From contig NZ_LMGU01000001.1 of the NCBI RefSeq assembly GCF_001427525.1, forward strand, positions 2,983,713-3,047,712: a stretch of 64,000 nt of DNA, in the 5' to 3' direction. The position numbers and the translations under genes were made by a program. Of the stretch, positions 38,781 through 63,315 are shown piece after piece. Each line of letters begins with the position of its first letter. Position 1 is the first letter of the stretch. The notes beneath the pieces are model-generated. The model saw only the letters and a list, made by a program, of their open reading frames with translations, did no database searches and was not told the DNA's origin. This DNA is from Microbacterium sp. Root61 (lineage in GTDB: Bacteria; Actinomycetota; Actinomycetes; Actinomycetales; Microbacteriaceae).

Positions 38781-40706
38781 TCAGCGGGCGGAGCTGTTCG
38801 CCGCTGCGGTGGTGCCTACCGGGAGCATGAACCGGCCGAGGAAGTCGGTGAGCTCTTCGATGCCGTCCAGCGGCAGCACGTGCGCCACGTACTGATCCGG
38901 ACGCACCAGGACGAGGCATCCGCTCTCGCGATCGACGCCACGTGCGTCGAAGATGTCCACGCCGGCGTTCGCGGTGAACGCCTTCTCGTAGTCGGCGAGA
39001 CCGTAGCGGCCCTTGTGCGGCCGCAGGATCTCGGGCAACGCCGTCGGCTCGACGCTGGTGTGCGGCTGCTGCAGGATGCCGCGGACGTCCAGGACGGCGT
39101 CCAGGTCGGCCCCGGCGGGCGTGAACCGTGCGATCGGCGAGTCCGGCCCCTCGGCGAGGGCCGCGCAGAACGCACGTAGGCGCGACTGCGGGTCATCGAT
39201 CGATCGGCGGTCCGCGAACGCGTACAGCCGCCAGCGGCCGTCGGCCTGGGCGACGTGCCCCAGCTCCATCTGCTTGGCGTCTGCGAGGCGCATCACCTGC
39301 GCGGAGTGGAAGCGCTCGCCGATCGGGAACCCCGCGGCCAGATGCTGCGAGGCGCCCCCGCCGGTGAGCAGGCTCGGCTGGTACTGCGTGGCCATGCCGG
39401 CCGTGTAGCGCCCCTGCTTCTGGAAGTGGTTCTGGAGCGCGTCGGGGTCTACGCCCTCGCCGGTCATCGTGTCCAGCGGCTTGGCGCTCATCATGGCCGC
39501 CCACTCCTTGTCGAAGCGGATGAGGTCGCCCGCGACCGACTGGCGCTCCGCCGAGTACGTGTGCAGCAGCGCCGGGGCGCTGCGCCCCTCGAGCACCGCG
39601 GCGAGCTTCCAGCCCAGGTTGAACGCATCCTGCATCGAGACGTTCATGCCCTGCCCGGCCTTGGGGCTGTGGGTGTGGCAGGCGTCGCCGGCGATGAAGA
39701 CGTGCGGAAGCCGCGTCTCGATCTCGTCCTCGGGGACGTCGTCGAACTTGTCGGTGAGGCGCTGTCCGATCTCGTAGATCGACCACCACACGATCTCCTG
39801 CACGTCGAAGCGGTGCGGATGCAGGATGCGCTGCGCGGCGGCGATGACGTCGTCGGATGTGAGGGCGCGCTCGGCCACCCGCTCGCCGGGCTGGAGTTCG
39901 TCCATCTCGATGTAGAGGCGCACCATGTAACCGCCCTCGCGCGGGATGATGATCATGTTGCCGACCTCGGCGGACTGGATGACCGACTTGAAGCGGATGT
40001 CGGGGTAGTCCGTGACGGCGAGGACGTCCATGACGCCCCACGCCTGGTTGGCGGAGTCGCCCTTGAGCTCGCGCCCGATCGAGCGGCGGACCGCGCTGCG
40101 CGCGCCGTCGCAGCCGACGACGTACTTCGCGCGGACATCGCGCGATGTGCCGTCCGCGGCCTGCATCGTCACCGTCACCGGGTGCGAGCCGGTGTCCGCG
40201 ACCTGCACGTCGGTGACGTCGAGGCCGTAGTCGGGCTCGAGGTGGCTCGCGGAGTCACGCATCGAATCGAGCAGGAAGTCCTGCACGCGGGCCTGGTTGA
40301 GGATGACGTGCGGGAACTCCGACAGCCCGTCCTCGACATCCTGGATGCGACCGCTGCGCGTGATGCTGCTGCGGTCCTGCGCGTCGGGACGCCAGAACAC
40401 GGTCTCGTTGACCCAGTACGACTCGCGCAGCAGGCGCGCGCTGAAGCCGAAGGCGTCGAACATCTCGACACTGCGGCACGCGAGGCCGTCGGCCTGGCCC
40501 ATCTGGAGTGCGCCGTCGCGGCGCTCCACGACGCGGGTGCGGATGTCGGGGAAGGCGGCCAGCTGGGCGGCGAGCACGAGTCCGGCGGGTCCCGTGCCGA
40601 CGATGAGCACGTCGACCTCGTCGGGAAGGCCGGTGTCGGCCTGTGTCGGGTCGACCGGGTGCTTCTCGGGGTCTCCAGGGCGGAACCCGTTCAGGTACGA
40701 CTGCAT
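38781..40706 (-). CDS. mobA: 3-hydroxybenzoate 4-monooxygenase
   Basis: A 641-residue flavoprotein, matching the roughly 640-residue MobA type. FAD motifs are DVLIVGTGPAGLVLAAQL near residue 33, CDGARSAVRRS near 200 and FIAGDACHTHSPKAGQGMN near 335; a thioredoxin-like C-terminal domain follows, as in phenol hydroxylases. It hydroxylates 3-hydroxybenzoate to protocatechuate with NADPH and O2. The start is ATG at 40706 after AGGAGAGGAC. Its leader holds a TATAAT -10 (40761-40756, minus). The product feeds pcaHG at 59.4 kb. A phenol-type substrate cannot be fully excluded. Confidence 0.82.
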   Translation of the reverse strand: MQSYLNGFRPGDPEKHPVDPTQADTGLPDEVDVLIVGTGPAGLVLAAQLAAFPDIRTRVVERRDGALQMGQADGLACRSVEMFDAFGFSARLLRESYWVNETVFWRPDAQDRSSITRSGRIQDVEDGLSEFPHVILNQARVQDFLLDSMRDSASHLEPDYGLDVTDVQVADTGSHPVTVTMQAADGTSRDVRAKYVVGCDGARSAVRRSIGRELKGDSANQAWGVMDVLAVTDYPDIRFKSVIQSAEVGNMIIIPREGGYMVRLYIEMDELQPGERVAERALTSDDVIAAAQRILHPHRFDVQEIVWWSIYEIGQRLTDKFDDVPEDEIETRLPHVFIAGDACHTHSPKAGQGMNVSMQDAFNLGWKLAAVLEGRSAPALLHTYSAERQSVAGDLIRFDKEWAAMMSAKPLDTMTGEGVDPDALQNHFQKQGRYTAGMATQYQPSLLTGGGASQHLAAGFPIGERFHSAQVMRLADAKQMELGHVAQADGRWRLYAFADRRSIDDPQSRLRAFCAALAEGPDSPIARFTPAGADLDAVLDVRGILQQPHTSVEPTALPEILRPHKGRYGLADYEKAFTANAGVDIFDARGVDRESGCLVLVRPDQYVAHVLPLDGIEELTDFLGRFMLPVGTTAAANSSAR

Positions 40707-45211: not shown

Positions 45212-46165
45212 TCAGGAGGTGACGTTCGGCGTGCCGTGCGTGTGGAAGGTCTCGATGGTCTTCATGCCCCACGCCTGACCCTTCTTGCGCTCCTCCGAAG
45301 TCCACTCCACGACGGGGGAGTCGGGGTCCAGCAGCAGGCGGGCGCCGGCATTGGCGAACTCGATGCGGTTGCCGCCGGGCTCCCACACGTAGAGGAAGAA
45401 CGTCTGGTTGATCGCGTGCTTGTGCGGGCCGGACTCGATGTGGATGCCGTTCTCCAGGAAGATGTCGGCGGCCTTGAGGATGTCCTCGCGCGTGTCCGGA
45501 GCGAAGGCGATGTGGTGCAGGCGGTCGCCGTGCTTGGTCCAGTCATCGGAGTACACGACGTCGTACGACTTGTTGTTGAAGTGGAACCACCAGGCGGCGT
45601 AGCCGCCGTCATCCAGCGCGATGCGCTCGCTCTCGCGGCCGCCGAGGGCCTTGGCGATGAACTCGCCGTTGGCCACGACATCCTTCGCGAGGAAGTTGAT
45701 GTGATCGAGGCGGCGCGCGTTCACTCCGCGGCCCGGGAAGGCGGACGCCTGGTTCTTCAGGGCCGGCTTGTCATCGGTCGCGACATATCGCTCGGACTCG
45801 TAGTAGATCGCCATCTTGTGACCGTCGGGGTCGCGGAACTCGAACGTCGGGCCGGTGCCGACCTCGCCGTCCACCCAGCCTTCGCCGAGACCCGTCTCCT
45901 TGATCGCCGCGACGCGACGCTCCAGGGCGTCCTGGCTCGAGGCCCGGAACGACGTGCGGCCCACGCCGGCGTCGGCGGATGCCGTGAGCTTGATCGTGTA
46001 CTGCTGGTACTCGTCCCACGTGCGCAGGTAGACGGAGTCGCCCTTCTCCTCGACGACGCGCATGGCGAGCAGGTCCTGGAAGAACCACAGGCTCTTGTCG
46101 AACGTCGCGGTGAGAAGTTCGACGTTGCCCAGGTGGGCCACGTCGAAGGAGGTGTAATCGGTCAC
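45212..46165 (-). CDS. Type I (VOC-fold) extradiol dioxygenase
   Basis: A 317-residue two-domain vicinal-oxygen-chelate protein, similar in length to catechol 2,3-dioxygenase (XylE, 307). Predicted Fe(II) ligands align with XylE: His155 in RRLDHINF, His218 in RLHHIAF and Glu269 in NRIEF, with Tyr259 in FFLYVWEP. The start is GTG at 46165 with GAGGACA upstream. The three genes upstream convert oxalomesaconate, so the expected substrate is gallate or 3-O-methylgallate. Known gallate dioxygenases (DesB, GalA) and 3-O-methylgallate dioxygenase (DesZ) are LigAB-type, an unrelated fold. A catechol substrate is the alternative. Confidence 0.85.
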   Translation of the reverse strand: MTDYTSFDVAHLGNVELLTATFDKSLWFFQDLLAMRVVEEKGDSVYLRTWDEYQQYTIKLTASADAGVGRTSFRASSQDALERRVAAIKETGLGEGWVDGEVGTGPTFEFRDPDGHKMAIYYESERYVATDDKPALKNQASAFPGRGVNARRLDHINFLAKDVVANGEFIAKALGGRESERIALDDGGYAAWWFHFNNKSYDVVYSDDWTKHGDRLHHIAFAPDTREDILKAADIFLENGIHIESGPHKHAINQTFFLYVWEPGGNRIEFANAGARLLLDPDSPVVEWTSEERKKGQAWGMKTIETFHTHGTPNVTS

Positions 46166-46208
46166 AGTGCTGTCCTCTCCGACAGTCGGGTTCGGTCGTT
46201 CAGATGGG

Positions 46209-47288
46209 TCAGAGGCGAGGGCGCGGGAAGACCGTGCCGTCGAAGATCTTGCGGGCCGTGCGAAGCGACATGGAGGAAGCCCGCCATGTGCCGTCGGGGT
46301 CCTGCGCGACGCGGACCCGAGCCGGGAACGTGCCGGTCGGGTGCTCGATCAGGTACGGACCGTCGCTCGGCACACGCGCGAAGTCGGCGCCGACGGCGCC
46401 GGGGATGCTCACGCCGGCGGCGACGGATGCCGCCATCAGGACGCCGATCGAGGTGTGCACGCGCGCGGGAATGAAAGCCCGGGTGCCGACCACGCCGTCG
46501 CCCTGCGGCGGTGAGATCAGGAACATCTTGGGGACGGTCTGCGCGCTCACGTCGCCGAGGCCCATGATCTCGCCCGCGCGCAGGCGGATCTCCTCGACGC
46601 GGCGGGTGAGATCCGCGTCGGCCTCGAGCTCTTCGGGGCTCTCCCGGCCGGTCACCGCGAACTCGTCTGCGCGCAGCAGCACGACGGGCATCCCGTTGTC
46701 GACGAGGGTGACCCGGTGTCCGGCGATGTCGTCGGCGGCGTTGCCGGTGGGCAGCAGCGGACGGTCGCCGGCGGACATCTCGAGCTCGATCGGCGCGGCC
46801 GTGCCGGGCACGCCGTCGATCGAGGCATCGCCGTCGTAGACCGGGAGGCCCTCGGCGACGGGGAAGACGGCGGTGGCCGTATCGCCGGTGTTCACGAGCC
46901 GGATGCGGACGCTCGCCTCGGCGCCGTCGGCGCAGATCAGGCCGCGCTCGAGGGCGAACGGCCCAATGCCGGCCAGGAGGTTGCCGCACGTCTGCGCGTC
47001 GCTCACGACGGGGCGATCCACGACGATCTGCAGGAACAGGTAGTCGACATCGATGCCGGGCGTCGTGGACGTCGAGACGATCGCGACCTTGCTGGTCAAG
47101 GGGTGCGCGCCGCCGAGCCCGTCGATCTGCGTCGGATCGGGGCTGCCCATGATCCGCAGCAGCAGGTCGTCACGCTCGGCGGGGTCGGCGGGCAGATCGG
47201 ACGCGAGGAAGTACGCGCCCTTGGACGTGCCGCCGCGCATCAGCATGCAGCGGACGCCGTGCACCGTCATCCGCTCAGCCGCGCCCAT
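46209..47288 (-). CDS. galD: 4-oxalomesaconate tautomerase (PrpF/GalD family)
   Basis: A 359-residue diaminopimelate-epimerase-fold protein. The PrpF signature MRGGTSKGAYF is near residue 17, the GLGGAHPLTSKVAIV stretch near 58 and DAQTCGNLLAGIGPFALERGL near 98. GalD tautomerises the keto and enol forms of 4-oxalomesaconate in gallate breakdown. Two starts are possible: ATG at 47288 (GAGG site, overlapping the aldolase by 14 bases) or ATG at 47270. It sits between the aldolase and the dioxygenase. PrpF of the methylcitrate pathway is the alternative, but no prp genes are near. Confidence 0.85.
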   Translation of the reverse strand: MGAAERMTVHGVRCMLMRGGTSKGAYFLASDLPADPAERDDLLLRIMGSPDPTQIDGLGGAHPLTSKVAIVSTSTTPGIDVDYLFLQIVVDRPVVSDAQTCGNLLAGIGPFALERGLICADGAEASVRIRLVNTGDTATAVFPVAEGLPVYDGDASIDGVPGTAAPIELEMSAGDRPLLPTGNAADDIAGHRVTLVDNGMPVVLLRADEFAVTGRESPEELEADADLTRRVEEIRLRAGEIMGLGDVSAQTVPKMFLISPPQGDGVVGTRAFIPARVHTSIGVLMAASVAAGVSIPGAVGADFARVPSDGPYLIEHPTGTFPARVRVAQDPDGTWRASSMSLRTARKIFDGTVFPRPRL

Positions 47289-47997
47289 GCTCCGCCTCGA
47301 AGTCCTGTGCGGTGACGTAGGTGACGCCGAGGTCGGCGAGCAGCGGGCGAAGGTTGTTGCGGTCGAGGCTCAGATCGCCCGCCTGGTACGCCGCGCGCGA
47401 GCCCGCTTCCTTGGCGACGCGCGCGTCGGAGGCGAGCAGAACGGCGGATGCCTCGGCCCTGGGCACACACACCACACCGTCGTCGTCGGCCACGATGATG
47501 TCACCTGCGCACACGACCGTGTCGCCGACCGTGATCGGCACGTTGACACTGCCGGCGGTGGCCTTGACCGTGCCCTGCGCGTTGACCGCGGCCGACCAGA
47601 CGTGGAAGCCCATCGCCCGCAGGTCCACGACATCGCGGACCCCGCCGGTGGTGACCAGCCCGAGCACGCCGCGCTGCTGCAGGGCCGTGGCGAACAGCTC
47701 GCCGAACGATCCGTCCAGCGAGGGGGACGTGGTGGTGACGACGAGGATGTCGCCGGCCCGGCACTGCTCCACGGCGGCGTGGATCATCAGGTTGTCGCCG
47801 GGCCAGTTGAGCACGGTGACCGCGGAGCCCGCGATGCGTGCGCCGTCCTGGAGCGGGCGGAGTGCGGCGCCGACGAGTCCGCGGCGGCCCATGGCCTCGT
47901 GGACGGTGGCGACACCGTGCACGCCGAGGGCGTCGATGGTCGCGGCATCCGCTCGTTCGATGTCGGTGACGACGAATCCGGTGCGTCCGACGCTCAT
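47275..47997 (-). CDS. 4-carboxy-4-hydroxy-2-oxoadipate aldolase (RraA/HMG-aldolase family)
   Basis: A 240-residue RraA-fold class II aldolase of normal length for LigK/GalC. Typical stretches are ATVHEAMGRRGLVG near residue 30, DNLMIHAAVEQCRAGDILVV near 67, LGLVTTGGVRDVVDL near 108 and ADDDGVVCVPR near 175. It cleaves 4-carboxy-4-hydroxy-2-oxoadipate to pyruvate and oxaloacetate and often decarboxylates oxaloacetate. The ATG at 47997 overlaps the hydratase stop (ATGA). The position between hydratase and tautomerase supports the assignment over the RNase-regulator RraA. Confidence 0.85.
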   Translation of the reverse strand: MSVGRTGFVVTDIERADAATIDALGVHGVATVHEAMGRRGLVGAALRPLQDGARIAGSAVTVLNWPGDNLMIHAAVEQCRAGDILVVTTTSPSLDGSFGELFATALQQRGVLGLVTTGGVRDVVDLRAMGFHVWSAAVNAQGTVKATAGSVNVPITVGDTVVCAGDIIVADDDGVVCVPRAEASAVLLASDARVAKEAGSRAAYQAGDLSLDRNNLRPLLADLGVTYVTAQDFEAEHGRG

Positions 47998-48749
47998 GCC
48001 AGGGTGTCCGTGACCTGCGGGTAGTAGCGCATGTACGCCTCGCCCATCGTGTCGACAGGCAGTCCCAGGTTGGGGCCGGCGTTGCGCTTGACCTGCACGC
48101 CCCTGCGGACCGCGAGGGAGGTGTAGTACTCCCACATGTGCTTCTGCGCGGGCAGGCACTCCATCGCCTTCTGCTTCAGCGGGAACGCCTCGGTGATGTC
48201 CAGCAGCACGTTCGGCTTGAAGTCGCACTGCTCGGGCTGGTGCGGCTCGAAGAAGAAGACCGGGGGAGCCCCGATGATCTCGTCGCGCGAGGGATAGGAA
48301 CCGTCGGAGTTCGCGACGCCGATGGCCTGTGCGAGCACGCGGGCCTGCAGCGCCATGCGCGCCGCAGCCGGGTGGTCGCCGTTGTACGGGTCTTCGAGCG
48401 GGTGGGTGAGCACGACGGTCGGCTGCACGCGACGGTAGACGTCGACGAGCTTCGCGACGGCCTCGGGGGACTCGATCAGCGGGTAGTCACCCAGATCGAG
48501 GAACTCGATGTCGGCGCCGAGCGCGGCGGCGGCCGCGGCGGCCTCGTCGCGCCGGATGGCCTTGATCTCATCCAGCGGCTTGCCCTGCAGCCACTGGCTG
48601 GCCGACTCCCCGCGCTCGCCGTAGGAGAGGCACACCACGGTGGCGCGCTCGCCGCGCATCGTCGCCGCCGCGATGGCCCCGGCGGCCCGCCACACGAAGT
48701 CGCCCGCGTGGGCGCTCACGACCAGAAGGGAGGGGGATGTCTGCGCCAA
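47994..48749 (-). CDS. galB: 4-oxalomesaconate hydratase (PIG-L/GalB family)
   Basis: A 251-residue LmbE/PIG-L-fold zinc protein, close to the length of Pseudomonas GalB. LLVVSAHAGDFVWRAAGAIA near residue 10 replaces the deacetylase AHxDD with HAGDF, as expected for GalB. The second zinc region is HPLEDPYNGDHPAAARM near 115. The start is TTG at 48749, with AGGATC upstream; no ATG or GTG lies near the expected N-terminus. It hydrates 4-oxalomesaconate to 4-carboxy-4-hydroxy-2-oxoadipate. It is the first gene of the minus-strand operon and divergent from the O-demethylase. Confidence 0.82.
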   Translation of the reverse strand: MAQTSPSLLVVSAHAGDFVWRAAGAIAAATMRGERATVVCLSYGERGESASQWLQGKPLDEIKAIRRDEAAAAAAALGADIEFLDLGDYPLIESPEAVAKLVDVYRRVQPTVVLTHPLEDPYNGDHPAAARMALQARVLAQAIGVANSDGSYPSRDEIIGAPPVFFFEPHQPEQCDFKPNVLLDITEAFPLKQKAMECLPAQKHMWEYYTSLAVRRGVQVKRNAGPNLGLPVDTMGEAYMRYYPQVTDTLA

Positions 48750-48867: not shown

Positions 48868-50379
<1,512 letters not shown>

Positions 50380-50436: not shown

Positions 50437-51102
50437 TCAGGCGAGCTCGCGGAGGGCCTCGATGACGCTCAGCAGGTGGACGCGCACGGCCTCGCGCGCG
50501 GCCTCCGGGTCGCGCGCCGTGATGGCGTCGATGATCGCGATGTGCTCCAGCACCGACACCTTCGCGCGCGACACGCGCGACCACAGCTTGAACTGGTGGC
50601 GGACGCTCTGGGCGTGGAGGCGGGCGAGCACATCCGACGCGGTCGCATGGCGGCTGATCTCGCGGATCCGCTGGTCCAGCAGCCGGTTGAGCCGCGCATA
50701 CTCGGCGAGGTCGCCCTCGGCGACCGAGTCGAGCAGCCGCACCCGCAGTCGGGTGAACTCGGCGATCTCGGTATCGGTGATCGACTCGGCGGTCTTGGCC
50801 GCGCACAGCTCCTCGATACCGCTGCGCACCTCGAGGATCTCGATCGCCTCATCCAGTGAGATGGCGCGCACGCGCGACCCCTTGTTCGGCAGGCGCTCGA
50901 CGAGGCCCTCGTTGGCGAGCTCCAGCAGCGCCGTGCGCACCGTTGCGCGGCTCGCGGCGAACGTGTCGCTCAGGTCGGCCTCGATGAGCCGCTGATTCGG
51001 GGCGTAGTCGCCCTGGATGATCGCATCGCGGATGCCATCGACCACGCGCGTCCCCGCGCTCTCCGGTGCCCCTGGTTCGTCGACTTCGACGCTGATCGAC
51101 AT
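50437..51102 (-). CDS. GntR-family regulator (FCD/FadR-C subfamily)
   Basis: A 221-residue protein. The N-terminal winged helix shows IRDAIIQGDYAPNQRLIEADLSD near residue 24 and SRATVRTALLELANEGLVERLPNKG, and the C-terminal FCD domain has an all-helical pattern with the metal-binding Asp/His positions (ARLNRLLDQRI, HIAIIDAITARD). The start is ATG at 51102 after AAGGAG. FCD proteins bind carboxylic acids. It is convergent with the demethylase. A TATTGT-TC-ACAATA repeat lies 51 bp upstream of it, so autoregulation is likely and control of the demethylase and gal-type operon plausible. Confidence 0.88.
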   Translation of the reverse strand: MSISVEVDEPGAPESAGTRVVDGIRDAIIQGDYAPNQRLIEADLSDTFAASRATVRTALLELANEGLVERLPNKGSRVRAISLDEAIEILEVRSGIEELCAAKTAESITDTEIAEFTRLRVRLLDSVAEGDLAEYARLNRLLDQRIREISRHATASDVLARLHAQSVRHQFKLWSRVSRAKVSVLEHIAIIDAITARDPEAAREAVRVHLLSVIEALRELA

Positions 51103-51152
51103 GAGACTCCTTCTGTGAGCGGCCGGTGTGACCCGCCACAAGTTCAAGCCAC

Positions 51153-51166
51153 TATTGTTCACAATA
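51153..51166. promoter_or_regulatory. TATTGTTCACAATA palindrome, candidate GntR operator
   Basis: A perfect 14-bp interrupted palindrome upstream of the GntR gene, with the TTGT/ACAA half-sites common for FCD-type regulators. TATAGGT directly overlaps its right edge (51165-51171), echoing the ATAGGT element at 1085 and 48909. Confidence 0.6.
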
Positions 51167-51270
51167 TAGGTGCGGGATGCATAGCCTGCAGCGCAATCTC
51201 GGCGCATTTCGGTGCTGAGCCGCCGGGATCCAGTGGGTCGACGCCGCGGATTCTCCCGATCGAGGACAAC

Positions 51271-51319: not shown

Positions 51320-52438
51320 TCAGGCGTCGGCCCAGACGTCCGCGGCGATCGCGACGGTGGTCTCGATCTTGGCCCACTGCTCGTCCTCGGACAGCACGTT
51401 GCCCTCCTCGGTCGAGGCGAAGCCGCACTGCGGGCTCAGCGCCAGCTGCGCGAGCGGCGCGACGGCGGATGCCTCGTCGATGCGACGCTTGATCGCGTCG
51501 GCGTCCTCGAGCTCACCGGACTTGGTCGTGATGAGGCCGAGCTCGACGACCTTGTCGCCCTGCGGCAGGAATCGCAGGGGCTCGAAGCCGCCGGCGCGCT
51601 CGTTGTCGTACTCGAGGAAGTAGCCGTCGAACGTGGTCTCACCCAGCAGCTGCTCGGCGACCGGCTCGTACCCGCCGGAGGAGATCCACGTCGAGCGGAA
51701 GTTGCCGCGGCAGACGTGGGTCGTGACGACCATGTCGGCGGGCTTGTCGCGCAGCGACGCGTTGATCAGTGCCGCGTACCGCTCGGCGAGGTGATCGGTG
51801 CGGATGCCGCGTTCGGCCGCCTTCTTCAGCTCGTCCTCCGAGCAGAGGTACGCCCATGCGGTGTCGTCGAACTGCAGGTAGCGGCATCCCGCGTCGTAGA
51901 ACGCCTGGACGGCGGAGCGGTAGGTCGCCGCGAGGTCTTCGAGGATGTCGTCGTGGTCGCCGTAGGACGATCCCGCGAGGGCGTCGCGCTCGAGGCGGAA
52001 GTCCAGGACCGTCGGGGCCGGGATGCTGATCTTCGGCGTCACGCCGGCTGCTTCGGCGACGGGCTTGAGGAAGCGGAAGTGCTCGAGCATCGGGTGATCG
52101 GCGGGGAAGCCGACCGGTCCGTCGATGTGCAGGCCGAGCGGGCGGGTCTGCACGCCCTGGAACTGGATGCCGTGATCGAGCTCGACCACGTTCACGCCGT
52201 CCAGCATCCCGAAGAAGTCGAAGTGCCACCACGAACGGCGGAACTCGCCGTCGGTGGCGACCTTGAGGCCGGCCTGCGCCTGGCGGGCGACCAGCGAGGT
52301 GATCGCCTCGTCCTCGACGGCGCGCAGCTCGGCGGCGTCGATCTCGCCCGCGGCGAGACGCACGCGGGCCGCCTTGACGGCGTCGGGGCGGAGGAAGCTG
52401 CCGACGATATCGGCGCGGAACGGCGGGTTCACAGACAT
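51320..52438 (-). CDS. MetE-like (cobalamin-independent) methyltransferase, C-terminal-domain type
   Basis: A 372-residue single-barrel protein related to the catalytic half of MetE and to the YxjG/YxjH group. Predicted zinc ligands are His and Cys in TTHVCRGN near residue 240, Glu in FLEYDNERAG near 280 and Cys in LSPQCGFAS near 345. FDDTAWAYL and DGEFRRSWWHFDF are also family-typical. It may move a methyl group from methyl-THF to homocysteine. Given the THF-dependent demethylase 1 kb away, it could use aromatic methoxyl carbon to make methionine (inference). Another thiol acceptor is possible. Confidence 0.8.
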   Translation of the reverse strand: MSVNPPFRADIVGSFLRPDAVKAARVRLAAGEIDAAELRAVEDEAITSLVARQAQAGLKVATDGEFRRSWWHFDFFGMLDGVNVVELDHGIQFQGVQTRPLGLHIDGPVGFPADHPMLEHFRFLKPVAEAAGVTPKISIPAPTVLDFRLERDALAGSSYGDHDDILEDLAATYRSAVQAFYDAGCRYLQFDDTAWAYLCSEDELKKAAERGIRTDHLAERYAALINASLRDKPADMVVTTHVCRGNFRSTWISSGGYEPVAEQLLGETTFDGYFLEYDNERAGGFEPLRFLPQGDKVVELGLITTKSGELEDADAIKRRIDEASAVAPLAQLALSPQCGFASTEEGNVLSEDEQWAKIETTVAIAADVWADA

Positions 52439-52480: not shown

Positions 52481-53347
52481 TTACGCTCCGCGACTGACGG
52501 AGATCGATTCGAGGTACTCCATCGACTTGAGCGACGAGTTCACGAGCGGCCGGAACCGCCCGCCCGGCGTGGCCGACGGGTGACCGGTCGGGAGATAGGC
52601 GGCCCGCAGCGCGACGGAGATCTCCCGCGCGGCGTGCGAGAGCAGTTCGATGTGTCCGAGCACGGGTACGTCGTCGTTGGGGACGACGAGTCCGATCGCG
52701 GCGATCACGTCGTTGTGTGCGCCGTACACCGGCACGGCGATGCCGCGGGACTCCTCGTGGATGTGCCCGTCGGTGACCGCCCAGCCGTCCGCGCGCACCC
52801 TCCGCAGCATCGCCCGCAGCTCCCGCTCCGTCGTGATCGTGTGCGGAGTGAATCGATGCATCGGCTTGGACAGCACCTCCTCGAGCACGGCCGGACCGGC
52901 GTGCGCGAGCATCACCAGCCCGCTGGAGGACGCGTGCACCGGAATGCGGCCGCCGATCAGGGTGGCGTTGACGACCGCGTCGCGCACCGACAGGCGGTCG
53001 AGGAAGAGCACCTCGGTGCCGCTCAGCACGGCCAGCTGGATGTGCTGGCGCACGCGGGCGTGCACGGCCTGCAGGTACGGGCGGGCGAGCTCGCGCAGGC
53101 CCAGGGCGCCGGGGGTGCGGCAGGCGAGCTCCCACAGTCGGATCCCGAGGCGATAGGTGCGATCGGGGAGGCGTTCGAGGAGGCCCTCGTGCTCGAGCTC
53201 GGCGACGATCCGGTGCGCCGTGGAGGGGGCGAGGCCGGCGCGGTCGGAGATCTCGGTCAGCGTGAGGAACGGCACGGCCGCCTCGAACGTGCCGAGTACT
53301 CTCAGGTGTTTACTGAGGACGGATTCGCCCCCGGATGCTCGCGCCAC
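52481..53347 (-). CDS. IclR-family transcriptional regulator
   Basis: A 288-residue IclR protein. The winged helix lies in residues 15-55 (LTLTEISDRAGLAPSTAHRIVAELEHEGLLERL) and the effector domain shows RTPGALGLRELARPYL near 75, SSSGLVMLAHAG near 140 and VYGAHNDVIAAIGLVVP near 215. The start taken is GTG at 53347 with GGAAGG six bases upstream; longer versions run through palindromic DNA at 53412-53436. It is divergent from the Liv-type importer and probably controls it. It is paralogous to the IclR at 26414-27226. Confidence 0.87.
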   Translation of the reverse strand: MARASGGESVLSKHLRVLGTFEAAVPFLTLTEISDRAGLAPSTAHRIVAELEHEGLLERLPDRTYRLGIRLWELACRTPGALGLRELARPYLQAVHARVRQHIQLAVLSGTEVLFLDRLSVRDAVVNATLIGGRIPVHASSSGLVMLAHAGPAVLEEVLSKPMHRFTPHTITTERELRAMLRRVRADGWAVTDGHIHEESRGIAVPVYGAHNDVIAAIGLVVPNDDVPVLGHIELLSHAAREISVALRAAYLPTGHPSATPGGRFRPLVNSSLKSMEYLESISVSRGA

Positions 53348-53411
53348 GATGCGCCTTCCGCTTTCGGACGGCACCCTCGCCGCCGTGTCCAGCCTGCTCT
53401 GACTGGATATC

Positions 53412-53620
53412 CTATGCTCCATAGTTCCATTGAACGGAAGTGATCGGCAGTGGACGCCGGTGGCGATCGTAGCCTGTGGATCTCTCACATTCGGACGACG
53501 GAGTCCGTGCAAGAGCACGATTTCCGTCTCCGTGACCCCTCAAGATCACGAAGCGGAATCCTTTGCGTAAACTCGTTCCAAAATCGTTGACAATCTCGTT
53601 GTCGATCTCTAGCGTCAACG
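53412..53620. promoter_or_regulatory. Divergent promoter region between IclR and the Liv-type importer
   Basis: This 334-bp gene-free stretch (53348-53681) holds several palindromes. CTATG-CTC-CATAG (53412-53424) and GTTC-CATT-GAAC (53425-53436) are near the IclR gene. A TTGACA -35 (53587-53592) lies within GACAA-TCTCG-TTGTC (53589-53603) and CGTTGAC...GTCAACG (53585-53591 and 53614-53620). The first pair could be IclR sites; the second overlaps the probable promoter of the importer. The -10 is weak (TAGCGT near 53610). Confidence 0.5.
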
Positions 53621-53681
53621 AGGTGCGATCCGTCACGGTCCGCATACCCGAGAGCAATGACGCACCCAGGAGAGGTTGCCC

Positions 53682-54464
53682 ATGGCCGCGCGCCTGAGCC
53701 TGAGAGACGTGAACCTCCGTTTCGGCGGCATCAAAGTCCTCGAAGACGTGAGCTTCGAGGTCGAGCCGGGATCCATCCACGGCCTGGTCGGCCCCAACGG
53801 CGCCGGCAAGACGTCGCTGTTCAACTGCATCAGCGGCCACTACAAGCCCAGCTCGGGATCGATCACGATCGACGGCGAGGAAGTGCTCGGGCTCGCTCCC
53901 TCCAAGCTCGCCCGTCACGGGCTCGCTCGCACGTTCCAGCATCCGGCGCTGCAGTTGAAGGCCACCGTGCTGGAGAACGTGCTGCTCGGCGGGCACACCG
54001 AACTGCCCGGCGGACCCCTCTCATGGTCGCTGCGCCTCCCCTTCACAGGGCGTGCCGAGCGCCGGCTGCGCGCCGAAGCGCTCGAGCTGCTCGAGCGCAC
54101 CAACCTCGGCTGGGCGGCCGACCTGCCCGCCGACGAACTGAGCCACGGTCTGCACAAGGGCATCGAGCTGTGCCGCGCACTGCTGTCCAAGCCGTCGCTG
54201 CTGCTGCTGGACGAGCCGGCCGCCGGTCTCTCGCACGGCGAGGTCGAGCAGTTCATCGCCACGGTCAAGCGCCTGCGCGCCGAAGACGACATCACCGTCA
54301 TCATCGTGGAGCACCACATGGGCCTGATCTCCGCACTCACCGACCAGGTCGTCGTGCTCGATCACGGGCGCAAGCTCATGGAAGGCACCGCCGCACAAGC
54401 GCAGTCCGACCCACGAGTGATCGAGGCCTATCTCGGAAAGGACGCGGTCGATGACGCTGCTTGA
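53682..54464 (+). CDS. Branched-chain-type ABC transporter ATPase (LivG-like)
   Basis: A 260-residue cassette. Walker A is GPNGAGKTSLFN near residue 38, the GLARTFQHPALQLKATVLENVLLG stretch near 82 is the LivG Q-loop, and LLLLDEPAAGLSHGE is Walker B near 175. The signature is atypical (LSHGLHKGIELCRAL). The start is ATG at 53682 after AGGAGAGG. It overlaps the next ATPase gene by 14 bases. Such HAAT-type importers often carry benzoate-like acids when near pca genes. Confidence 0.88.
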   Translation: MAARLSLRDVNLRFGGIKVLEDVSFEVEPGSIHGLVGPNGAGKTSLFNCISGHYKPSSGSITIDGEEVLGLAPSKLARHGLARTFQHPALQLKATVLENVLLGGHTELPGGPLSWSLRLPFTGRAERRLRAEALELLERTNLGWAADLPADELSHGLHKGIELCRALLSKPSLLLLDEPAAGLSHGEVEQFIATVKRLRAEDDITVIIVEHHMGLISALTDQVVVLDHGRKLMEGTAAQAQSDPRVIEAYLGKDAVDDAA

Positions 54465-55161
54465 ACTCGTCGACGTCACGGCGGCGTACGGTCCGGTGCA
54501 GGTGCTGGAGAGCGTTTCGCTCGAGGTCCCCGAAGGGGGCGCGGTCGGGATCCTCGGCGCCAACGGCGCGGGCAAGACCACCACCCTGCGAGCGATCAGC
54601 GGCACGGTGCGCACCGGCGGGAAGATCTCGTTCGACGGTCGCGACATCCGCGGCCTCGGTCCGGACAAGGTCGCCGCCCTCGGCATCGCGCACGTCCCGG
54701 AAGGGCGCGGCACGCTGGGCCAGCTCACCGTGCGCGAGAACCTCCGCGTCGGCGCCTATCTCCGCAAGGACCGCAAGGCGATCGCGGCGGACATCGATTA
54801 CTGCCTCGACCTCTTCCCGAACCTGCAGGCCCGGATCGGCTCCAGCGCGGCTGCGCTCTCCGGCGGAGAGCAGCAGATGCTCGCCGTCGGCCGCGCGTTC
54901 ATGGCCAAGCCGCGGCTGCTCCTGCTGGACGAGGCGTCGCTCGGGCTCGCGCCCAGCACCGCCAAGCTGGTCTACGAAGCGATTGGCCGGCTCCGCAAGG
55001 AGTCCGGCATCGCGATGCTGATCGTCGAACAGAACGCCAACCTCGCTTTTTCCCTCGTCGACACCGCGACCGTCCTGGAGACGGGTCGCAATGCGCTGAC
55101 CGGCACCTCTGCCGAGCTCAAGGGCATGGACGAGATCCGACGCGCCTACCTGGGGGGTTGA
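54451..55161 (+). CDS. Branched-chain-type ABC transporter ATPase (LivF-like)
   Basis: A 236-residue cassette. Walker A is GANGAGKTTTLR near residue 37, IAHVPEGRGTLGQLTVRENL near 85 is typical of LivF, the signature is LSGGEQQMLAVGRAFMAKP near 135, and Walker B is LLLLDEASLGLAP. The start is ATG at 54451 after GGAAAGGACG. It pairs with the LivG-like protein to power the importer. Confidence 0.92.
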   Translation: MTLLELVDVTAAYGPVQVLESVSLEVPEGGAVGILGANGAGKTTTLRAISGTVRTGGKISFDGRDIRGLGPDKVAALGIAHVPEGRGTLGQLTVRENLRVGAYLRKDRKAIAADIDYCLDLFPNLQARIGSSAAALSGGEQQMLAVGRAFMAKPRLLLLDEASLGLAPSTAKLVYEAIGRLRKESGIAMLIVEQNANLAFSLVDTATVLETGRNALTGTSAELKGMDEIRRAYLGG

Positions 55162-55164
55162 CCG

Positions 55165-56046
55165 ATGGGCACCTTCATCCAGCTCGTCATCGATGGACTT
55201 TCGACCGGATCGATCTACGGCGCGCTCGCGCTCGCGATCGTCCTCGTGAACCAGGCGACGGGCCTCATCAACTTCGCACAGGGCGGAATGGCGGTCCTCT
55301 CCGCCTACATCGCGTACGTGTTCACCCAGCTGGGTCTGCCCGTGCTCGTCGCGATCCTGATCTCGGTCGTGATCTCCTTCTTCATCGGAGCCATCGTCGA
55401 GCGGTTCCTGGTCCGAAAGTTCGAGCGGGGCGACCCCGACACGGCCGTCGTCGTGACCATCGGCATCCTGACCCTGGTCACCGGCATCTGCGCGTGGATC
55501 TGGGGCTACAACAACCGCCAGTTCCCGTCCCTGTTCCCGCTCACCAGCGTGAACGTGTTCGGCGCCGTGATCAGCGTCCGCTCGCTCGGTACGATCCTCG
55601 CGATCGTGCTGATCATGATCGTGCTGCAGCTCCTCTTCATGAAGACGAAGTTCGGGCTCGCGCTGCGCGCCGTCGCCATCAACCCGCAGTCCGCGGCGTT
55701 CTCGGGTCTGCCCGTGGGTCGTCTGCTGATGGCGGGCTGGGGTCTGGCCGCCTCGCTCGGCGCGATCGCCGGATCGCTGGTCGCCCCGCAGCTCACGCTG
55801 ACACCCGGGATGCTGGACACGGCGCTCGTCTACGCCCTCGCCGCGGTGATCCTCGGCGGGCTCACCAGCCCGATCGGTGCGATCGTGGCCGCCTGGTCGA
55901 TCGGCGTGCTGGAGAACCTCGCCGCCGTCTACGTGCCCTTCATCGGGCATGACCTCAAGATCGCCGTGCCGTTCATCCTGATCTTCGTGATCCTGATCGT
56001 TCGTCCTCAGGGCCTGTTCGGCCGGAAAGTCGTGGTGCGGGTCTGA
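55165..56046 (+). CDS. Branched-chain-type ABC transporter permease (LivH-like)
   Basis: A 293-residue membrane protein with eight or so hydrophobic segments. GLSTGSIYGALALAIVLVNQATGLINFAQG-type spacing at residues 10-40 and FGLALRAVAINPQSAAFSGLPVGR near 165 are LivH hallmarks. It starts at ATG four bases after the LivF-like gene and overlaps the next gene by one base. Confidence 0.92.
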   Translation: MGTFIQLVIDGLSTGSIYGALALAIVLVNQATGLINFAQGGMAVLSAYIAYVFTQLGLPVLVAILISVVISFFIGAIVERFLVRKFERGDPDTAVVVTIGILTLVTGICAWIWGYNNRQFPSLFPLTSVNVFGAVISVRSLGTILAIVLIMIVLQLLFMKTKFGLALRAVAINPQSAAFSGLPVGRLLMAGWGLAASLGAIAGSLVAPQLTLTPGMLDTALVYALAAVILGGLTSPIGAIVAAWSIGVLENLAAVYVPFIGHDLKIAVPFILIFVILIVRPQGLFGRKVVVRV

Positions 56047-57158
56047 TGGGCGGCGTGAACGACATGACGTACGGGATGCCGCGAGCCGGGGCATCCGGCT
56101 TCTTCCAGAAGTCCTGGGTGCGCTGGGGCCTGATCGTGCTGCTGGGCGTGGTGCTCATCGTGGCGCCGCTGGTCCTGCCGCAGTTCGCGAACCAGACGCT
56201 CATCCGCATCGGCGTGTACGCCGTCGCGGTGCTGGGCCTGAACATCGTGATGGGCTACGGCGGGCAGGTGAACCTGGGACAGATCTTCTTCCTCGGTCTC
56301 GGTGCCTATGTCACCGCCTACGGCGTCGCTAACGAGTGGAACATCGTCCTGGTGCTGGCCGCCGCGATCGTGATCCCCGGTGTGGTCGGACTGCTGGTGT
56401 CCTTGGCCGCCGCACGACTGGGCGGTCTCGCGATCGCCATGGTCACCATCGCCCTCCCGATCGTCGGCGTCCCGCTCGCGAAGCGCTTCTCCGATGTGAC
56501 GGGCGGCTCGCAGGGGATCTCGGCGCGCTTCTCCGACGCCCCCGAGTGGACCGGTCTCTACAACGACCAGTGGCAGTTCTACATCGTCGCCCTCATCGCG
56601 GTGGTCGCCTTCGTGCTGGGACGCAACTTCGTCCGGGGCAAGTTCGGGCGGGCGCTCGCGATCGTGAAGGAGAACGAGTCGGTCGCCTCGTCGATGGGCA
56701 TCTCGCCCTACCGCTACAAGGTGCTGGCCTTCACCGTTGCCTCGCTGTTCGGCGGTGCGAGCGGGTTCCTCTATATGGTGGCCGTCCAGTACACGTCGCC
56801 GGAGACGCTCAGCTTCCACCACTCGATCAGCCTGCTGGCCGCCATGGTCATCGGCGGCGCCGGCAGCATCGTCGGATCCCTGATCGGCGGCGCGTACTAC
56901 GTCTTCGTCCCGCAGGCCACGAATGCGATCGACCCGAACCTGACGGCGATCATCCAGGGCGTCATCCTGCTCGTCGTGCTGTTCGTCCTCCCCGGCGGGC
57001 TCGTGAGCCTCCCGCGCAGGATCAAGCGCATGATGCGGCGCTCCGGCCCTTCGGCCGGTCCTACTGCGCCCGCTCCACAGACCACTCCTTCGTCGGGCCC
57101 TGAGCTGGGTGCCGCCGAGGAGGGACCGCAACAGACAGAGAGGCAAGGCCAAGCATGA
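56046..57158 (+). CDS. Branched-chain-type ABC transporter permease (LivM-like)
   Basis: A 370-residue membrane protein. VAVLGLNIVMGYGGQVNLGQIFFLGLGAY-like spacing near residues 58-85 and FGRALAIVKENESVASSMGISPYRYK near 200 mark the LivM family. A Pro/Ser-rich cytosolic tail of about 40 residues is longer than usual. The start is ATG at 56046, sharing one base with the LivH stop. It overlaps the binding-protein gene by ATGA. Confidence 0.9.
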   Translation: MGGVNDMTYGMPRAGASGFFQKSWVRWGLIVLLGVVLIVAPLVLPQFANQTLIRIGVYAVAVLGLNIVMGYGGQVNLGQIFFLGLGAYVTAYGVANEWNIVLVLAAAIVIPGVVGLLVSLAAARLGGLAIAMVTIALPIVGVPLAKRFSDVTGGSQGISARFSDAPEWTGLYNDQWQFYIVALIAVVAFVLGRNFVRGKFGRALAIVKENESVASSMGISPYRYKVLAFTVASLFGGASGFLYMVAVQYTSPETLSFHHSISLLAAMVIGGAGSIVGSLIGGAYYVFVPQATNAIDPNLTAIIQGVILLVVLFVLPGGLVSLPRRIKRMMRRSGPSAGPTAPAPQTTPSSGPELGAAEEGPQQTERQGQA

Positions 57159-58426
57159 ACATGCGCAAGAGAGCAAGGGGCATCGTCGGCGTCGTCGCCA
57201 TGGCGTCCATCGTCGCTGTCGCCCTGGCAGGGTGCTCCCGCGGGGGCACCGAAGACGGCGGTGGCACCGACGGCAGTGCTGCCCCGGCCAGCCCCGGCAT
57301 CACCGACACCAGCATCACCTTCGGCATCACCAGCCCGCTGACCGGCGCCACCGCCGGCCCCGGCAACTGCACTGTCGACGGCGCCCTGGCGTACTTCGGC
57401 GTGAAGAACGCCGAGGGCGGCATCGAGTTCGGCGACGGCAAGACCCGTACGGTCGAGATCAAGGCGTACGACGACGGCTACGACCCGCAGAAGGCGCTCG
57501 CCAACTTCCAGCAGATGGTCTCGGACGGCGTCTTCGCCGCCGGACTCGGCCTGGGCACGCCCACCAACCGCGCCTGGCGTGAGGCGGCCATCGACGAGGG
57601 CGTGCCGCAGGTGCTCGTCCAGACCGGTGACCCGCTGTTCAGTGACCGCGAGGAGAGCCCCGAGCAGATCGGTCTCGTGCCGATCTACCAGCAGGAGGGT
57701 GCCGCGTTCGGCGAGCTGCTGGCCAGCTCGGACGAGCCGCACAAGGTCGCGATCCTGTCGCAGAACGACGACTACGGCAAGGGCTACGTCGAGGGTCTCA
57801 AGGACGCCATCGCGGATGCCGACAACATCGAGATCGTGGGCGAGCTCACGTACGAGGCGACCGACACCTCCGTCGACGCACAGCTCACCGAGCTGGCGGC
57901 GACCGGTGCGGACGTCTTCTTCAACGCGATGTCGATCACCCCGCTGGTGATCTCGTCGCTGCAGAAGGCGCAGCAGATCGGCTGGCTGCCCAGCTGGTTC
58001 CTGCCGTCCAACACGTCGAGCCCGGTCGCGATCCTCGAGCCGGGTGGGGCGTCGGCATTCCCCGGCATCTACTCGGTCGCGTTCTCGCAGTCCGCGGCGA
58101 GCCCCGCGTTCCAGGAGAGCGAAGAGGGCAAGGCGTTCCTCGCGGCGATCGACGAGTACACCAACCAGGACGGCGTCCCGGCGTTCCCGCACTGCGTGTG
58201 GAGCTGGATCGGCGCCGCGACGCTCGAGCAGGCCTTCATGAAGATGGAAGAGCCGACCCGCGAGAGCTTCATGGCAGCACTCATGAGCATCGAGGACTTC
58301 CAGGCCCCGTTCATGCTCGAGGGCTCCGACATCAACACGACCGTCGACGGCAAGCCCGCCGTCTCGAGCGTGCAGGTGCAGAAGTACAACGGCAAGGGCT
58401 ACGCCACTGCCGAGACCTTCGGTTGA
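57155..58426 (+). CDS. Branched-chain-type ABC substrate-binding lipoprotein
   Basis: A 423-residue precursor with a signal peptide ending in the lipobox LAGC (Cys26) and a Gly/Ser/Thr-rich linker. ITFGITSPLTGATAGPG near residue 50, VEIKAYDDGYDPQKALANFQQMV near 105, and VAILSQNDDYGKGYVEGLKDA near 195 are typical of LivJ/aromatic-acid receptors. The pca genes downstream suggest 4-hydroxybenzoate, protocatechuate or similar as ligand (inference). A terminator hairpin follows. Confidence 0.9.
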   Translation: MNMRKRARGIVGVVAMASIVAVALAGCSRGGTEDGGGTDGSAAPASPGITDTSITFGITSPLTGATAGPGNCTVDGALAYFGVKNAEGGIEFGDGKTRTVEIKAYDDGYDPQKALANFQQMVSDGVFAAGLGLGTPTNRAWREAAIDEGVPQVLVQTGDPLFSDREESPEQIGLVPIYQQEGAAFGELLASSDEPHKVAILSQNDDYGKGYVEGLKDAIADADNIEIVGELTYEATDTSVDAQLTELAATGADVFFNAMSITPLVISSLQKAQQIGWLPSWFLPSNTSSPVAILEPGGASAFPGIYSVAFSQSAASPAFQESEEGKAFLAAIDEYTNQDGVPAFPHCVWSWIGAATLEQAFMKMEEPTRESFMAALMSIEDFQAPFMLEGSDINTTVDGKPAVSSVQVQKYNGKGYATAETFG

Positions 58427-59399: not shown

Positions 59400-60215
59400 A
59401 TGAGCACGTCCACGACCGCCGCAGCGCCGGAGTCCCTCCTCGCTTCGCCCGATCAGCTATCGCAGAACGAGATCACCGCGGAGATCCGGCACTACCACGC
59501 CGCCGCCGAAGCGCGTGAGGCCGCGGGCGAGCACGTCCGTGCGACCGCCCACGACTTCCCGCCGTACCGCTCCAGCATCCTGCGCCACCCGACCAAGAAC
59601 CTGCGCCTGGTCGACCCCGAGACGATCGAACTGTGGTCGCCGGCGTTCGGGCAGCGGGATGTCGCCGCCATCGAGGCCGACCTCACGCTCCAGCACACGG
59701 GCGAGCCTCAGGGTGAGCGCATCACGGTGCAGGGGCGACTGCTCGACTCCTGGGGCCGCCCGGTCGCGAACCAGCTGATCGAGGTGTGGCAGGCCAATGC
59801 CGCCGGCCGCTACATCCACCAGCGCGACCAGCATCCCGCGCCGCTGGACCCGAACTTCACGGGCGCCGGTCGCATGGTCACGAACGACAACGGCGAGTAC
59901 AAGTTCACGACCATCAAGCCCGGTCCGTACCCGTGGAAGAACCACGTCAATGCGTGGCGCCCCGCGCACATCCACTTCTCCGTCTTCGGTGCGAGCTTCA
60001 CGCAGCGCATCATCACGCAGATGTACTTCCCCGGCGACCCGCTGTTCGCGCTGGACCCGATCTACAACTCCATCCACCGCCAGAAGGACCGCGACCAGCT
60101 CATCGGCGCCTACAACCACGACCTCACCGTGCCCGAGTTCTCCATGGGCTACGAGTGGGACATCGTGGTCGACGGCCCGGATGCGACGTGGTTCGAGCCC
60201 GAGGGAGAGCACTGA
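59400..60215 (+). CDS. pcaH: Protocatechuate 3,4-dioxygenase, beta subunit
   Basis: A 271-residue intradiol dioxygenase subunit. The Fe(III) ligands are visible: a tyrosine in AAGRYIHQ near residue 137, the second in KPGPYPWKN near 178, and the two histidines in RPAHIHFSVFG near 190-192. LLDSWGRPVANQLIEVWQAN is the conserved beta-sandwich start. It cleaves protocatechuate to 3-carboxy-cis,cis-muconate with the alpha subunit. The start is ATG at 59400 after AAGGGAGA. It shares one base with pcaG (TGATG). Confidence 0.96.
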   Translation: MSTSTTAAAPESLLASPDQLSQNEITAEIRHYHAAAEAREAAGEHVRATAHDFPPYRSSILRHPTKNLRLVDPETIELWSPAFGQRDVAAIEADLTLQHTGEPQGERITVQGRLLDSWGRPVANQLIEVWQANAAGRYIHQRDQHPAPLDPNFTGAGRMVTNDNGEYKFTTIKPGPYPWKNHVNAWRPAHIHFSVFGASFTQRIITQMYFPGDPLFALDPIYNSIHRQKDRDQLIGAYNHDLTVPEFSMGYEWDIVVDGPDATWFEPEGEH

Positions 60216-60775
60216 TGCCCGCGCCCCAGAAGACCCACGCCGGCACCCCCGGTCAGACCATCGGCCCGTTCTTCGCGTTCGGTCTGGACTACGACAAGAA
60301 GCACGAAGCCGCCTTCCCGCACTCGCCCGGCGCGATCGTGCTCGGCGGCATCGTCTACGACGGCGACGGTGCACCGATCCCCGACGCGATCGTCGAGATC
60401 TTCGGCGCCGATTCGGACGGCACCGTGCCGCGCGGCCGCGGCTCGCGTCGCCGTGACGACCACACCTTCACCGGATTCGGCCGTTCCGCGACCACCGACG
60501 AGGGCGGCTACGAGTTCTGGACCCGCAACCCGGGCGCGATCGACGGCAAGGCGCCCTTCTTCGCCGTCGTCGTGTTCGCCCGCGGGTTGCCCGACAAGCT
60601 CCACACCCGGATCTACCTCCCGGAGAACGCCGAGCTGCTCGCGGCCGACCCGCTGCTGTCCTCGCTCACGCCGGAGGAGCGCGCTACGCTCGTGGCGACG
60701 CGCACCCCCGAGGGGTACCTGCGGCACGACATCCGGCTGCAGGGCGAGAAGGAGACCGTGTTCCTTGACTTCTGA
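60215..60775 (+). CDS. pcaG: Protocatechuate 3,4-dioxygenase, alpha subunit
   Basis: A 186-residue non-iron-binding partner of PcaH. GQTIGPFFAFGL near residue 13, VYDGDGAPIPDAIVEIF near 48, FTGFGRSATTDEGGYEFWTRNPG near 87 and HTRIYLPE near 130 are typical. The start is ATG at 60215. Its end overlaps the TTG start of pcaB by about ten bases, so translation of the whole pca set is coupled. Confidence 0.95.
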   Translation: MPAPQKTHAGTPGQTIGPFFAFGLDYDKKHEAAFPHSPGAIVLGGIVYDGDGAPIPDAIVEIFGADSDGTVPRGRGSRRRDDHTFTGFGRSATTDEGGYEFWTRNPGAIDGKAPFFAVVVFARGLPDKLHTRIYLPENAELLAADPLLSSLTPEERATLVATRTPEGYLRHDIRLQGEKETVFLDF

Positions 60776-62917: not shown

Positions 62918-63315
62918 TGCGACCCGCAGGCGAAGGACTCTCCGACGAGGAGCGCTACGACCAGGGCATGGCCGTGCGCCGCGCCGTGCTGTCGGACGCC
63001 CACGTCGACCGCTCCACGGCGGCCGCGACCGAGCTGACGGCGGAATGGCAGGACTTCATCACCCGCGTCGCGTGGGGCGACGTGTGGTCGCGCCCCGGCC
63101 TGGACCGCCGCTCGCGCTCGATCGCGGTGCTGTCCTCACTCATCGCGCACGGGCATCACGAGGAGCTCGCGATGCACCTGAGCGCCGCGCGCCGCAATGG
63201 CCTGACGCTGGACGAGATCAAGGAAGTCATCCTGCAGAGCGCCATCTACTCCGGCGTCCCCGCCGCGAACACGGCGTACCGCATCGCCGGCGAGGTCTTC
63301 GCCGGCGAGCTGTAG
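62917..63315 (+). CDS. pcaC: 4-carboxymuconolactone decarboxylase
   Basis: A 132-residue CMD/AhpD-fold protein of normal PcaC length. RYDQGMAVRRAVLSDAHVDRS near residue 12, WGDVWSRPGLDRRSRSIAVLS near 53, and the active-site HGHHEELAMH near 78 are typical. It decarboxylates 4-carboxymuconolactone. The start is ATG at 62917, four bases after AGGAGG; ATG at 62914 is possible. It overlaps or abuts the pcaD stop. The later steps (PcaIJ, PcaF) are not in the window. Confidence 0.93.
   Translation: MRPAGEGLSDEERYDQGMAVRRAVLSDAHVDRSTAAATELTAEWQDFITRVAWGDVWSRPGLDRRSRSIAVLSSLIAHGHHEELAMHLSAARRNGLTLDEIKEVILQSAIYSGVPAANTAYRIAGEVFAGEL

Follow-up and report, generated by a model that had tools for sequence, protein, structure and literature searches.

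The Microbacterium sp. Root61 genome encodes, within a 64-kb stretch that we analysed as a whole (the window), a vicinal oxygen chelate (VOC) dioxygenase clustered with genes of the 4-oxalomesaconate (OMA) pathway. As judged from sequence and genomic context, this enzyme is very probably a gallate dioxygenase that feeds the pathway. An earlier sequence-only reading had proposed an alternative ring-cleavage enzyme for gallate or 3-O-methylgallate, unrelated to the LigAB family. Comparative genomics strongly support the predicted alternative enzyme, with an OMA hydratase near the VOC gene in 85 of 114 related loci, and they favour gallate as its predicted substrate, a better fit than 3-O-methylgallate. 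The VOC enzyme would be a non-homologous replacement of GalA and DesB from another superfamily, and what is new is a predicted gallate pathway in which the ring-opening enzyme has been replaced by one of another fold.

We predict the substrate, cleaved bond, product, and metal of the enzyme as follows. Gallate would bind the 2-His-1-Glu metal through two of its three hydroxyls, and the VOC enzyme would use O2 to cleave the C4-C5 bond, giving OMA in one step. GalD would tautomerise OMA, GalB would then hydrate it to 4-carboxy-4-hydroxy-2-oxoadipate (CHA), and an aldolase would split CHA into pyruvate and oxaloacetate. Upstream, LigM would convert 3-O-methylgallate to gallate and vanillate to protocatechuate, the latter exiting through pcaHG.

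The OMA gene set and its recurrence

Four pathway genes lie together on the minus strand of the window, beside a divergent O-demethylase gene (model scores are given with their cut-offs where these apply):

45212..46165, minus strand: VOC-fold (type I) extradiol dioxygenase, predicted gallate dioxygenase forming OMA (317 aa)
46209..47288, minus strand: GalD-like OMA tautomerase, PrpF family (NF033377, 442.9, cut-off 440; PF04303, 302.3)
47275..47997, minus strand: GalC/LigK-like CHA aldolase, RraA family (NF006731, 303.6, cut-off 179; PF03737, 137.2)
47994..48749, minus strand: GalB-like OMA hydratase, PIG-L fold (5cgz, 258.9 bits; PF02585, 85.2)
48973..50379, plus strand: LigM-like tetrahydrofolate-dependent vanillate/3-O-methylgallate O-demethylase, divergent (NF047885, 917.9, cut-off 580; 5tl4, 732.3 bits)

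The coordinates of the cluster that the sequence-only reading had described were confirmed, and the O-demethylase it had noted next to the operon is of the LigM type. From GalB through the aldolase to GalD, successive genes share a few bases at their junctions, and 43 bases separate GalD from the VOC gene, a tight spacing that makes a single operon plausible. The locus thus holds an OMA hydratase, an OMA tautomerase, and a CHA aldolase together, the gene set of a gal pathway. GalD exceeded its model cut-off by a narrow margin, the aldolase missed a second model (TIGR02798, 267.6 against a cut-off of 304.5), and no OMA-hydratase model matched GalB in an NCBIfam profile search of the window proteins; 5cgz, which GalB did match, is a solved OMA hydratase. 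The longest ATG frame of GalB extends to 48857. We placed its likely start at a TTG codon present at 48749 because, in other genomes, the matched region starts at residues 26-42 of the longer frame, mostly at 35-40.

The window contains no LigAB-type gene, as had been noted, and this extends to the whole genome: the LigB domain PF02900 had no match in the 4.02-Mb assembly (99.9% complete), and the same search was positive in four of 14 control genomes. The Pseudomonas putida KT2440 gal pathway (GalA-GalD) likewise combines GalB/GalC/GalD-type genes with the OMA route (PMC12314914, PMC10512348), but its ring opening is of the LigB type, whereas Root61 has a VOC enzyme in the operon and no LigB match. 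The syringate/gallate branch of Sphingobium SYK-6 (DesA, LigM, DesB) uses DesB, a type II dioxygenase (PMC3962378); Root61 shares a LigM-like gene and has a DesA-like gene elsewhere, although its DesA-like genes score under the DesA cut-off of 800. AromaDeg files gallate dioxygenases under the LigB superfamily (PMC4250580).

Related loci came from a contig scan (the best 80 of 100 confirmed VOC relatives), a family sample of 150 genomes (eight loci), an order sample of 297 genomes (15 loci), and plasmid records, 75 of which matched the window VOC protein and from which 14 of 15 hand-chosen regions were added. The set excludes L135, a catechol-type locus, and also L111 and L120-L124, which comprise GalB-only loci and one paralogue at 41%. 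Removal of three loci with identical VOC sequences reduced the total from 117 to 114, in which neighbours were counted within 9.5 kb; the counts cover many related genera and are not independent, and they are minimum counts, some contigs being short. The 85 loci with an OMA hydratase comprised 69 with GalB and 16 with the LigJ type, and none had both. GalC and GalD were each found near 87 VOC genes, both together near 82, and both with a hydratase near 81, while at least one of the four pathway genes (GalB, LigJ type, GalC, GalD) was present in 92 loci. Relatives occurred beyond Actinomycetota, in Alphaproteobacteria, Pantoea, Chimaeribacter, and Thermus oshimai, and because the gene set recurs across phyla, chance can be excluded as the source of the linkage. 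The route that the sequence-only reading called actinobacterial is therefore not restricted to Actinomycetota.

GalB and LigJ are unrelated hydratases, the former a PIG-L protein and the latter an amidohydrolase. Our LigJ queries matched solved OMA hydratases, that from L052 at 585.9 bits to 2gwg and 475.7 bits to 6dxq, and that from L153 at 616.3 bits to 6dxq. A quick tree built from 66 VOC proteins placed the 49 OMA-linked rows on one branch (SH-aLRT 99), with long branches (L002, L003, L124) leaving the outgroup order unsure. Hydratase type required seven changes on this tree, as counted over the 38 rows of the OMA-linked branch with a known hydratase. Locus L116, which carries the same VOC protein as L056 and where no GalB was found, is outside this count. 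Since the hydratase partner swaps while the function stays, the VOC product is most likely what OMA hydratases need, with GalD in between.

Co-occurrence was also scored across whole genomes. In the family sample, where VOC proteins were counted at a minimum of 57% identity and a weaker match (G046, 41%) was placed among the others, GalB was present in eight of nine VOC genomes versus six of 141 others. The order sample gave seven of 16 versus none of 281, in a search that scored at most eight GalB candidates per genome and may have missed some. One GalB match (G215, C3 719774-720535) has an in-frame TGA, reflecting either a pseudogene or a sequencing error.

Several related loci differ in composition from that of Root61. 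On the pAt plasmid of Agrobacterium tumefaciens strain 186, from walnut (L127), GalB, VOC, aldolase, and tautomerase genes are followed 189 bases on by a tannase-family gene. This plasmid is typed as conjugative, and walnut is a tannin-rich host plant. All four pathway genes occur without an annotated or detected O-demethylase in Rhizobium Q54, Thioclava, a Paracoccaceae plasmid, and Rhizobium SL42; each of these operons has a LysR-type regulator (gbpR in the Paracoccaceae record), three have a DUF1932 gene, and three have TRAP transporters. LigI, checked against 4d8l, occurs in clusters from Roseomonas (L128), which also has a LigB gene, and from an Agrobacterium isolated from rose (L153), and these two clusters may handle other substrates.

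Fold and active site of the VOC dioxygenase

The best NCBIfam model of the VOC protein was TIGR03211 (catechol_2_3), matched over its full length at 306.7 bits, under the curated cut-off of 320.2. Its Pfam matches were confined to Glyoxalase families, with no LigB domain. A structure search against VOC dioxygenases had been suggested by the sequence-only reading. Using an AlphaFold2 model of 316 residues, which omits the start codon (mean pLDDT 87.2), Foldseek matched such enzymes end to end, with TM-scores of 0.89 to 3lm4 and 7q2a. In the model, a two-domain VOC fold spans the whole protein, as expected for a type I extradiol enzyme. Three other VOC relatives in the same genome share 31% identity or less with it.

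The XylE-like ligands proposed earlier proved to be conserved. In an alignment of 214 rows comprising the window protein, relatives, and outgroups, His155 and His218 were present in all rows and Glu269 in 213, the remaining row having a gap, and in solved VOC dioxygenases the aligned positions hold conserved His, His, and Glu. At the second-sphere position, Tyr201 falls at His200 of homoprotocatechuate dioxygenase (HPCD), as counted from printed coordinates, a position where the His is stated to be important (PMC10760822). HPCD and the catechol-type VOC dioxygenase AphC (3lm4) resemble the window enzyme in fold (TM 0.82-0.89, normalised by query length), in the metal ligands, and in having His250 and Tyr259. 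The window enzyme differs from them in Tyr201, in conserved Arg226, Arg276, and Arg293, and in its OMA-pathway context.

We compared residues between the clade of the window enzyme (209 rows: the window protein, 88 loci, and 120 database proteins of unknown context that share 67-90% identity) and the 120 proteins nearest PDB 9wgj, which are mostly from Bacillota where named, with some Ktedonobacteria, and are called catechol 2,3-dioxygenase. Tyr201 was invariant in the clade (209/209) and present in 119 of the 120 proteins of the 9wgj group, so we rejected it as a gallate marker. Arg276 separated the groups better (208/209, with one gap, versus 3/120), Arg226 did so less sharply (208/209 versus 37/120), and Arg293 was common to both. 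His201 was found in L124, L003, 3lm4, and a Thermus HB8 protein, and 29 further clade loci all had Tyr201 and Arg276. The carboxylate of gallate could be bound by Arg276 or Arg226.

PDB 9wgj itself is 51% identical to the window enzyme and shares Tyr201 and Arg293 with it, whereas its group has Tyr at position 276 (114/120) and a one-residue deletion at 272 (117/120). It agrees at all 312 residues compared with a Geobacillus protein (P0121) named catechol 2,3-dioxygenase, from which we take its organism, and it was not among the best 50 fold-search matches listed (library to 2026-04-08). The entry is named Catechol 1,2-dioxygenase, an intradiol name, though the sequence marks it as a VOC extradiol enzyme; this is probably a naming error.

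Which substrate the enzyme cleaves

Protocatechuate needs further enzymes to reach OMA. Gallate gives OMA in one extradiol step, and 3-O-methylgallate, too, needs further enzymes (PMC12314914). We favour gallate over 3-O-methylgallate because of the four-gene operons described above and because 32 loci combine one or more pathway genes with no detected O-demethylase. The search for O-demethylases covered the LigM/DesA and VanA types, neither of which was found in the flanks of 40 loci, these 32 and eight with no pathway gene. Gallate also fits better because a tannase gene follows one operon and LigI, a 2-pyrone-4,6-dicarboxylate (PDC) hydrolase, is near only two of the 114 loci. Tannase-like genes were found near three loci in all, two of which (L052 and L142) showed only partial local similarity.

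It is improbable that the VOC enzyme cleaves 3-O-methylgallate rather than gallate, with the resulting 4-carboxy-2-hydroxy-6-methoxy-6-oxohexa-2,4-dienoate (CHMOD) or PDC then converted to OMA. O-demethylases do occur near many VOC genes (LigM/DesA type at 63 loci, VanA type at 11), Pseudomonas NGC7 cleaves 3-O-methylgallate directly with a LigAB-type enzyme (PMC12314914), and GalA itself can act on this compound (PMC12481942). However, such a route needs a CHMOD esterase or a PDC hydrolase. LigI, at two loci, had no match in the Root61 genome, in a search that had no positive control and did not cover CHMOD esterases, and the 32 pathway loci without either O-demethylase type also count against it. 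Of the two substrates originally proposed, gallate has therefore gained ground and 3-O-methylgallate has lost it.

Somewhat less probable still is a protocatechuate 4,5-dioxygenase, from which a DUF1932 dehydrogenase and a hydrolase would lead to OMA. DUF1932 genes at 65 of the 114 loci would suit this scheme, as would a gene set on a Thermus oshimai JL-2 plasmid (L152, 6956-13355) with VOC, GalB, GalC, DUF1932-like, DUF6282 hydrolase, and 4-hydroxybenzoate 3-monooxygenase genes, which is possibly a VOC-type protocatechuate route. In Root61, however, pcaHG lies 13 kb away, so that protocatechuate has, by gene content, its own ring cleavage; no DUF1932 gene was seen in the window operon, and a single DUF1932 query, like the LigI query, found no match in the genome (neither with a positive control). 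No PDC hydrolase was seen in the four-gene operons that lack an O-demethylase.

There is only a very slight chance that the protein is an ordinary catechol 2,3-dioxygenase in this operon by accident, as its best NCBIfam model and the name given to its relatives in several sources might suggest, since the linkage to OMA genes is repeated over phyla and gene orders and the two relatives that do lie in meta-cleavage clusters, L124 (with 4-hydroxy-2-oxovalerate aldolase, 463.4 against a cut-off of 286, and acetaldehyde dehydrogenase, 441.6 against 282.25) and the Thermus HB8 protein, share about 41% identity and are without the clade residues, having His201 and no Arg276.

Several observations weigh against a gallate dioxygenase. 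No pathway gene was found within 9.5 kb at 22 of the 114 loci: 13 from Microvirga (all with MetE, 10 with VanA), three from Sinomonas, one each from Tersicoccus, Nitratireductor, Pantoea, and Chimaeribacter, and two from order-sample genomes (G280 and G322). In the latter two, GalB is elsewhere on the same contig, far from the VOC gene, so that the genes are far apart in two of the seven order-sample genomes that hold both. The DUF1932/6-phosphogluconate-dehydrogenase-like genes at the 65 loci (for example, L006 3315-4187 and L127 3414-4301) span phyla and have no role in the textbook route. G121, a genome listed as 100% complete, has a GalB, GalC, GalD, DUF1932, and GntR cassette (L111, 6592-10230), with neither a VOC match at E 1e-60 nor a LigB match. 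Tyr201, being common to the catechol-named 9wgj group, is by itself no mark of gallate in sequence comparisons. Finally, LigB was more frequent in order-sample genomes with the VOC gene (9/16) than in the others (59/281; Fisher p 0.003), and in seven of these nine the VOC gene lies in a LigJ-type cluster; the family sample gave 2/9 versus 34/141. Within 9.5 kb of the VOC gene, a single LigB query had matches at two of the 114 loci. We therefore rejected LigB absence as a general signature, and the case for replacement rests on its absence from the Root61 genome together with the gene linkage.

Published enzymes offer partial parallels to a VOC gallate dioxygenase. With BLC23O, a catechol 2,3-dioxygenase of Bacillus ligniniphilus, the phenolic signal from gallic acid fell by 14% in 6 h, as measured by Folin-Ciocalteu only (PMC9925492). 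At 283 aa versus 317 aa, and likened to the window enzyme by description rather than sequence, it acts weakly on gallate, and this slight action makes a VOC enzyme acting on gallate chemically credible. PcaA of Pseudarthrobacter phenanthrenivorans Sphe3 is an actinobacterial enzyme that converts gallate to OMA; unlike the window enzyme, it is a type II protocatechuate 4,5-dioxygenase with gallate as a side substrate (PMC8431788). Apart from the weak BLC23O, no VOC gallate dioxygenase appeared among the matches listed in the open-licence literature, subscription journals lying outside the search.

Neighbouring genes and wider meaning

Further features of the window lie beyond the O-demethylase:

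50437..51207, minus strand: GntR/FCD regulator; related loci repeatedly hold similar regulators
51320..52438, minus strand: MetE-like methyltransferase (NF005085, 563.7, cut-off 313)
52481..53518, minus strand: IclR regulator, closest model PcaR/PcaU/PobR (TIGR02431, 137.4, under the cut-off of 284.75)
59400..60775, plus strand: pcaH and pcaG, protocatechuate 3,4-dioxygenase, intradiol (TIGR02422, 342.5, cut-off 296.4; TIGR02423, 166.5, cut-off 126.25)

The MetE-like gene, a counterpart of which is near 31 of the 114 loci, is a possible sink for methyl groups released by LigM. A second LigM-like gene (71% identity; L125, contig position 2981443 onward) ends 0.9 kb before the window start and adjoins PurU- and MTHFR-like genes, the MTHFR-like part falling within the first kilobase of the window; the three likely form a C1-handling set. 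A DesA-like gene is located about 122 kb past the window end. With LigM, the second LigM-like gene, and this DesA-like gene (under its cut-off), a route from syringate to gallate is possible on paper. Syringyl lignin units, named as the source by the sequence-only reading, are thus a possible input, though not the sole one, tannins being another. In the pca region (59400-63315), the frames after pcaHG include pcaC, over its NCBIfam cut-off, and pcaB- and pcaD-like genes under theirs. A branched-chain-type ABC transporter set, named by reading, precedes the pca genes (about 53657-58426), and a phenol 2-monooxygenase-type flavoprotein is encoded near the cluster at 38781-40706 (NF006144, 1013.3 bits, cut-off 560).

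The breakdown of hydrolysable tannins and of syringyl lignin commonly ends in gallate, and the bacterial gallate dioxygenases that the cited papers name (GalA, DesB, and PcaA as a side activity) are of the LigB type. We give even odds to a broader proposal, that the Root61 enzyme belongs to a widespread and as yet unrecognised family of VOC-fold gallate dioxygenases, often filed in databases as catechol 2,3-dioxygenase, that would serve the catabolism of tannins and syringyl lignin in Actinomycetota, Alphaproteobacteria, and some Gammaproteobacteria, with Tyr in place of the second-sphere His and Arg276 or Arg226 holding the gallate carboxylate. If so, gallate catabolism may be present in genomes where it seems to be missing, and a new name would be needed for many proteins now called catechol 2,3-dioxygenase. 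Two unrelated folds would then carry out one ring cleavage, and a well-studied active site would offer a natural His-to-Tyr change.

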